Assembly (NCBI GenBank): GCA_009377575.1
Contig: WHTU01000001.1
Span: 124,001-188,000, forward strand
DNA from: Nitrososphaeraceae archaeon
GTDB lineage: Archaea > Thermoproteota > Nitrososphaeria > Nitrososphaerales > Nitrososphaeraceae
Direction of reading: 5' to 3'
Length of the DNA: 64,000 bases
The notes under the pieces are model-generated. The model was not told where the DNA came from and made no database searches. It was given only the letters and a program-made list of their open reading frames with translations. The translations under genes were made by a program, and so were the position numbers. Shown piece after piece: positions 28,978 through 43,125 of this stretch (within the stretch, counting starts at the first letter, position 1; every line of letters starts with the position of its first letter).

Positions 28978-29017
28978 CATTATTAAAGTTACAGTTCGTC
29001 AATAGAGGGAGCCCGGA

Positions 29018-29112
29018 AGCCCGGTAGAGTGGATTTTATTATCGCCGAATGTAGTGGCCAAGCATAGAGGCCTTTGGAGCCTTTGACCCCAGTTCGAATC
29101 TGGGCCGGGCTA
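29018..29112 (+). tRNA. tRNA-Gln (anticodon UUG) with a 22-nt intron in the D-arm
   Basis: Acceptor AGCCCGG/CCGGGCT, anticodon stem GAGGC/GCCTT around C-T-TTG-G-A, and T-arm CCCAG-TTCGAAT-CTGGG. Between the acceptor and D-stem lie 22 extra nt (29028-29049). Removing them restores a normal D-arm (GTGT...GCAT). The junction folds as a bulge-helix-bulge: exon CGGU (29022-29025) pairs with intron GCCG (29044-29047), with bulges AG|A and AA|U. This is a non-canonical position. A second AGCCCGG copy lies just upstream (29010-29016). Confidence 0.85.
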
Positions 29113-42290: not shown

Positions 42291-42981
42291 CTTGCTTTAA
42301 AGTGCTGAGATGTAATTTAATGATAATGATTGCATTGTTGACAAACATTGCATTTAAAAGTCGCAAAGCTTGAGAAGGCAACATTAATGAATTTATTTAA
42401 CTAGTTGAGGGTTTCAGTTACCTGTCAAGAGTCAGAATTATTTCATCGCGAAGACTTAATGTTTGATTCCATTTCATAGACGAACCCATTAATTAAACAC
42501 GGCAGATTCATAATAATTCACAGGGTCCAGGACCAATTAGTAGATAATCCAATCTGTTAGTGGCGATTATGATTGACACATAGTCATTAGAATAAATGAA
42601 TGGTAATTTTCAGTCGGCTCGAGTCGGTTAGGGACATTGTAGCTTGGTACCGTAGAAGCGATCTTAATTGTGAACGCGGAATACAGCTCTTCCCAGAAAC
42701 TATGACCTATCTACTGCCGTCGAAATTGTCTATCAAATTGTATCATGTTGGACGTATAACCTAAGGAAGAACAATAACTTCAATATGGAATGGTTTCCCT
42801 AGCCAATTAGTATGCTAGGTAAGAACGTTTCTCAATTGTAATCTAGTGTTTGTTAAATACTTGCGTTATACAATGATAATAGTTACGGTTTTTTCCGTTC
42901 GGTGTAGAAGTCTTGTGACAGTTGCAGCACCCATACTCCATAAACGCTAATATATTGAAGCGCACAGTGAACAACTTACGA
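42291..42981. other. 691-nt gene-free stretch upstream of tRNA-Leu
   Basis: The longest stretch without a gene here. AT-rich, no ORF with family support. It contains ATTGCATT twice (about 42328 and 42347) with a TTTAAAAG TATA-like box, and ACGG-TTTTTT-CCGT near 42883-42896. A small RNA could be encoded but I cannot define one. Confidence 0.5.
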
Positions 42982-43125
42982 GCGGGGGTTGCCAAGCCTG
43001 GCCAACGGCGCAGGTCCTCATGTGTTACAAAAATACATGGTTGTGCGAGGCTTAGAATGGGTCAGGTCTTTTCTCCTAAAACCCTGTTCCTAAGGGATTC
43101 GTGGGTTCAAATCCCACCCCCCGCA
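42982..43125 (+). tRNA. tRNA-Leu (anticodon UAG) with two introns
   Basis: Acceptor GCGGGGG/CCCCCGC, long class II variable arm and T-arm GTGGG-TTCAAAT-CCCAC. The anticodon arm is split. Intron 1 is 43015-43049 (35 nt): exon CGCA pairs with intron UGCG, flanked by 3-nt bulges GG|U and AG|G, a textbook bulge-helix-bulge at position 30/31. Intron 2 is 43058-43081 (24 nt): UUAG pairs with CUAA, near canonical 37/38. Removal gives CAGGG-CTTAGAA-CCCTG, a perfect stem with anticodon TAG, and an 85-nt mature tRNA. Confidence 0.92.

Follow-up and report, generated by a model that had tools for sequence, protein, structure and literature searches.

A conserved tRNA-Leu(UAG) gene interrupted by two introns, both probably non-canonical, in an archaeon of the Nitrososphaeraceae

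The canonical site of tRNA introns lies between nucleotides 37 and 38 (37/38), and a bulge-helix-bulge (BHB) intron is marked by a 4-bp helix with a 3-nt bulge on either side, each bulge being cut after its second nucleotide. Departures from a single intron at this site have been published for several archaeal groups. In the tRNAscan-SE 2.0 survey, multi-intron tRNAs are reported for the Thermoproteales and 107 non-canonical introns are counted in Thaumarchaeota (PMC8450103), and the work on Caldiarchaeum subterraneum (Aigarchaeota) gives three multi-intron tRNAs, including Leu(UAA) and Thr(GGU) (PMC3293823).

Here we describe a 144-nt tRNA-Leu(UAG) gene at positions 42982-43125 on the forward strand of a 64,000-nt stretch of DNA (the window) from a member of the Nitrososphaeraceae, a lineage of soil ammonia-oxidisers. 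The gene is real and well supported, and belongs to a class, that of multi-intron and non-canonical-intron tRNAs, which was already known. An earlier note on this DNA regarded two introns in one tRNA as notable for a thaumarchaeote. This was overstated, as most of the family has the arrangement, other two-intron tRNAs occur in the same genome and there are published precedents. A literature search on tRNA introns in Nitrososphaeria found no paper describing this gene, which genome tRNA databases presumably list for complete Nitrososphaera genomes.

A mature tRNA of 85 nt is obtained only when segments of 35 nt and 24 nt are excised, which restores a CAGGG/CCCTG anticodon stem carrying TAG, as had been proposed in the earlier note, whose sequence and coordinates for the gene proved correct. 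Exon 1 (nt 1-30; 42982-43014, forward strand as for all features of this gene) comprises the acceptor strand GCGGGGG, the D arm and bases 1-4 of the anticodon stem, and is identical in three distinct congeneric genes. Intron 1 (35 nt; 43015-43049) follows at site 30/31. Exon 2 (nt 31-38, GCTTAGAA; 43050-43057) holds the anticodon at 43053-43055, has its register from comparative analysis, and is separated by intron 2 (24 nt; 43058-43081, site 38/39) from exon 3 (nt 39-73; 43082-43125), which supplies CCCTG, the variable arm, the T arm, the acceptor strand and the discriminator A, CCA not being encoded. The acceptor stem is GCGGGGG/CCCCCGC and the T arm GTGGG-TTCAAAT-CCCAC, and the D arm is of leucine type. 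Upstream of the gene, a TATA-box-like element TAATATATTG (42948-42957, forward strand) lies within a block, CATAAACGCTAATATATTGAA, that the five genomes of the genus share without a single change; sequence farther upstream diverges. The element is a putative promoter.

When doubly spliced, the sequence is called by ARAGORN as an 85-nt tRNA-Leu(tag) with discriminator A, and it has the cloverleaf, long variable arm, leucine anticodon and A73 of a class II archaeal tRNA-Leu. Removal of intron 1 alone is enough for ARAGORN to call tRNA-Leu(tag) with its intron option. The form lacking only intron 2 gives a spurious Met(cat), and the unspliced form a spurious Phe(aaa). The intact gene is missed by ARAGORN and by Rfam at gathering score; Rfam detects the T arm alone, at 14.5 bits. 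Rfam matches to Plastid-ycf2 and Polynucleobacter-1 over the locus fall far below gathering scores and were set aside as chance. Failure of standard finders to call the intact gene would also fit a tRNA pseudogene in decay that has gained two insertions by chance. We rejected this reading as extremely unlikely, since this is the sole Leu(UAG) gene found, its exons are conserved, its BHB helices covary and the structure is family-wide.

The earlier note had named another intact Leu(UAG) gene in the genome as evidence that would count against this locus. No second copy was found with a leucine-specific 5' pattern, three mismatches allowed, in a genome of 3.89 Mb in 380 contigs, estimated to be 99% complete. 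The pattern finds the window gene together with Leu(CAG) on contig C314, Leu(UAA) and Leu(GAG) on C222 and Leu(CAA) on C55, and also returns non-leucine matches. CUA makes up 152 of the 972 leucine codons (15.6%) in the 29 open reading frames of at least 250 aa within the window, hence a Leu(UAG) gene should be needed, a statement to be read with the fragmented assembly in mind, and the gene is probably functional, single-copy and essential. As ordinary tRNA finders miss the sole CUA-reading tRNA found, and its second splice site is open to mis-annotation, genome surveys can wrongly report this tRNA as absent.

The placement of intron 1 is supported by pairing between exon and intron. Exon nt 25-28 (CGCA) are complementary to a UGCG close to the intron's 3' end, giving a 4-bp helix flanked by 3-nt bulges with predicted cuts at GG^U and AG^G. 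This helix is fully complementary in 83 of 85 distinct family genes for Leu(UAG) and Leu(CAG), and 338 of 340 positions pair, compared with 0-230 of 340 when the helix is slid by 1-4 nt. An inner stem of at least 2 bp is present in 69 of the 85 genes, where shuffling gives 13 on average and at most 22; in the window gene it is imperfect beside the bulge, and an 8-bp stem lies deeper in the intron. The helix also covaries. Leu(UAG) combines CGCA with UGCG, one outgroup combines CGCG with CGCG, and in Leu(CAG) an exon CGUG faces CACG or CAUG in the intron, hence exon and intron strands have changed in concert. The earlier proposal of a tRNA-Leu(UAG) with two BHB introns, one of them at 30/31, is borne out.

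Intron 2 requires a choice between two registers. In this genome A37 and A38 are both A, so the alternative coordinates 43057-43080 (site 37/38) yield the same product as those at 38/39, and the intron could be read as a canonical one, where standard software would also put it, leaving intron 1 alone non-canonical. The sister gene Leu(CAG) lends this reading some support, as its second intron fits 37/38 with 122 of 132 helix pairs and nt 38 is A in 33/33 genes. Comparison of 51 Leu(UAG) genes points the other way and led us to reject the 37/38 placement. Helix pairing reaches 170/204 in the 38/39 register vs 4/204 at 37/38, and an inner stem of at least 2 bp forms in 51/51 vs 8/51 genes. Furthermore, A37 is followed by A in all 51 genes, and the position preceding C39 is variable (A 36, T 14, C 1), as expected of an intronic base. 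We therefore consider a canonical intron 2 improbable. On these sequence comparisons neither intron occupies 37/38, and both are very probably non-canonical, at 30/31 and 38/39. The earlier note was right that intron 1 lies off the canonical site; its placement of intron 2 at 37/38 needs a shift of one base, and the helix it quoted, UUAG/CUAA, belongs to the 38/39 intron.

At 38/39 the window gene presents a BHB in which UUAG (nt 33-36) pairs with CUAA, with bulges AA^U and AA^C and an inner stem GGG/CUC. Among relatives the helix often has 3 bp. The outer helix of intron 2 is weak and U33 pairs in only 18/51 relatives, hence the intron-2 BHB is of a relaxed type.

The two-intron gene is present in the other 4/4 genomes of the genus. 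Three distinct congeneric sequences show 0/85 differences in their exons, and differ at 2-6 of 35 positions in intron 1 and 0-2 of 24 in intron 2. Comparison with the Leu(UAG) genes of Nitrososphaera relatives, which the earlier note had called for, recovers the same two-intron gene throughout the genus and nearly the whole family. We surveyed 300 sampled genomes of the order, of which 70 are family members. A 30/31 intron of 10-40 nt was matched by pattern in 52/70 of these, and longer 30/31 introns (42-57 nt) occur in six further members, hence the intron is kept in 58 of the 61 family genomes with a resolved gene (the 70 sampled minus nine without one). Among named records, Nitrososphaera sp. 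AFS, Nitrososphaera sp. CW1 and Candidatus Nitrosocosmicus sp. carry both introns. In the order sample, an intron at 30/31 also turned up in three genomes from two other families.

Intron 1 is exactly absent from three family genomes of the sample (G027, G032 and G113), which encode in DNA the predicted junction of CAGG with GCTTAG; its exact absence is seen in the genes of relatives L110, L111 and L175. Nitrososphaera sp. L.E.AR.1 has intron 2 only, and the marine Thaumarchaeota archaeon SAT137 (L219, PAWD01000008.1) has a 30/31 intron of 17 nt and no intron 2. Relatives with a single intron are thus of both kinds, each absence leaving the predicted junction, which indicates that the introns come and go independently. 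The family offers natural experiments, with intron 1 lost, intron 2 absent, or sister isoacceptors carrying different intron registers, that could be used to test the spread, retention and sequential splicing of tRNA introns.

To consider the order of splicing, the 51 genes were folded under constraints that fixed the acceptor and T stems and barred the D loop from pairing. Unconstrained minimum-energy folding gave no cloverleaf even for the mature tRNA, a failed positive control, and was set aside, hence the argument on order depends on the imposed constraints. Under these, the anticodon stem forms in 51/51 mature tRNAs (mean probability 0.94), in 0/51 full precursors (0.04), in 35/51 after removal of intron 1 (0.61) and in 0/51 after removal of intron 2. 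The helix of intron 2 has a mean probability of 0.09 with intron 1 present and 0.33 after its removal. The helix of intron 1 reaches a mean of only 0.22 in full precursors, and 0.62 in the window gene. The modelling suggests that intron 1 must leave before intron 2.

In the pathway we infer, the gene would be transcribed and exon nt 25-28 of the primary transcript would form base pairs at the 3' end of intron 1 to give a 3-4-3 BHB. The tRNA splicing endonuclease would cut at GG^U and AG^G, and an RtcB-type ligase would join the exons. The anticodon stem would form only once intron 1 is gone, because nt 27-28 are held in the intron-1 helix. The anticodon (34-36, with U33) would then pair with intron 2 to build the second BHB (AA^U, AA^C), and a second cleavage would release the 85-nt tRNA. 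On this model there would be no second splice site before intron 1 has been excised.

A competing view is that an endonuclease of relaxed specificity removes the introns in either order, or simultaneously. Heterotetrameric endonucleases do tolerate relaxed motifs (PMC6379350), and a flexible precursor could offer intron 2 in an alternative fold, whereas the folding results above, with anticodon stem and second helix both depleted while intron 1 is in place, speak for an order. Neighbouring introns of which one must go before the second BHB can form are also described by the tRNAscan-SE authors (PMC8450103). We regard removal without a fixed order as possible and somewhat unlikely. For the full combination, in which both introns lie off the canonical site, splicing order is obligatory through sequestration of nt 27-28, conservation is as old as the family and the exon-intron helix has co-evolved separately in two isoacceptors, we see the chances as even.

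The genome encodes components of the required machinery. One tRNA splicing endonuclease alpha subunit of 184 residues was identified, which in a PDB search comes closest to the Aeropyrum pernix enzyme (E = 1.3e-42) and other endonucleases of crenarchaeal type, and has the tRNA-splicing endonucleases 3p1z and 3ajv as best PDB relatives. Its Lys39 aligns with Lys44 of 3p1z, and it has the specific loop and conserved lysine of alpha subunits of (alpha-beta)2 enzymes. An RtcB ligase gene is also present. Searches of the genome with PF01974, PF02778 or the alpha subunit as query gave no second match that could be a beta subunit; beta subunits are divergent in sequence. The crenarchaea-specific loop and its lysine (K44) give the A. 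pernix enzyme its broad substrate range (PMC6379350). Thaumarchaeota are reported to have an alpha2-beta2 enzyme, and by analogy the endonuclease of this archaeon would be heterotetrameric (PMC4090602). Overall, we are highly confident in reading the locus as a functional, single-copy and probably essential gene for tRNA-Leu(UAG), whose two BHB introns, predicted to be protein-spliced, lie at 30/31 and 38/39.

Other tRNA genes of this genome are also interrupted. Leu(CAG) (L038, G000:C314:51515-51629, reverse strand) has introns at 30/31 and 37/38, an arrangement retained by many members of the family, and Leu(UAA) (L036, G000:C222:105912-106031, forward strand) has a D-arm intron and one at or near 37/38. 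Similar introns in the D arm are seen again in the Leu(UAA) genes of other families within the order (L057-L059). Within the window, a tRNA-Gln(UUG) at 29010-29111 (forward strand), of which Rfam matches the middle part only, has ~31 extra nt between the 5' acceptor strand and the D arm that look like an intron near position 7-9, and a second Gln gene (G000:C111:96314-96372, reverse strand) looks similarly interrupted. Inspection by eye also points to D-arm interruptions in L267 (G000:C314:53587-53842), L263, L264, L265 and L026, whose apparent identities are Ser(UGA), with two introns, Arg(CCU), Asp(GUC), Glu(UUC) and Asn(GUU). Non-canonical tRNA introns seem abundant in this genome. Farther afield, a tRNA-Leu(UAA) of Aenigmatarchaeota (DPANN; L213, JAGVVZ010000002.1) seemingly has introns at 30/31 and 37/38, which suggests an independent insertion at the same site.

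Among known systems, the Thermoproteales (Crenarchaeota) resemble this gene in having several BHB introns per tRNA gene, non-canonical sites included (PMC8450103, PMC4033280). They belong to another phylum, however, and here few isoacceptors are involved and the arrangement is conserved through one thaumarchaeal family. The thaumarchaeal training introns of tRNAscan-SE 2.0 come from the same phylum and are BHB introns of the same kind (PMC8450103). Split tRNA-Lys(CUU) of Nanoarchaeum and Staphylothermus shares the break point 30/31 (PMC4090602), but its halves are joined in trans, whereas in Leu(UAG) the break is a cis intron. The closest published neighbours with multiple introns are the two-intron tRNAs of Caldiarchaeum, a leucine tRNA among them; they differ in that the leucine tRNA is Leu(UAA) rather than Leu(UAG) and that the tRNA-Thr(GGU) sites are 24/25 and 45/46 (PMC3293823).
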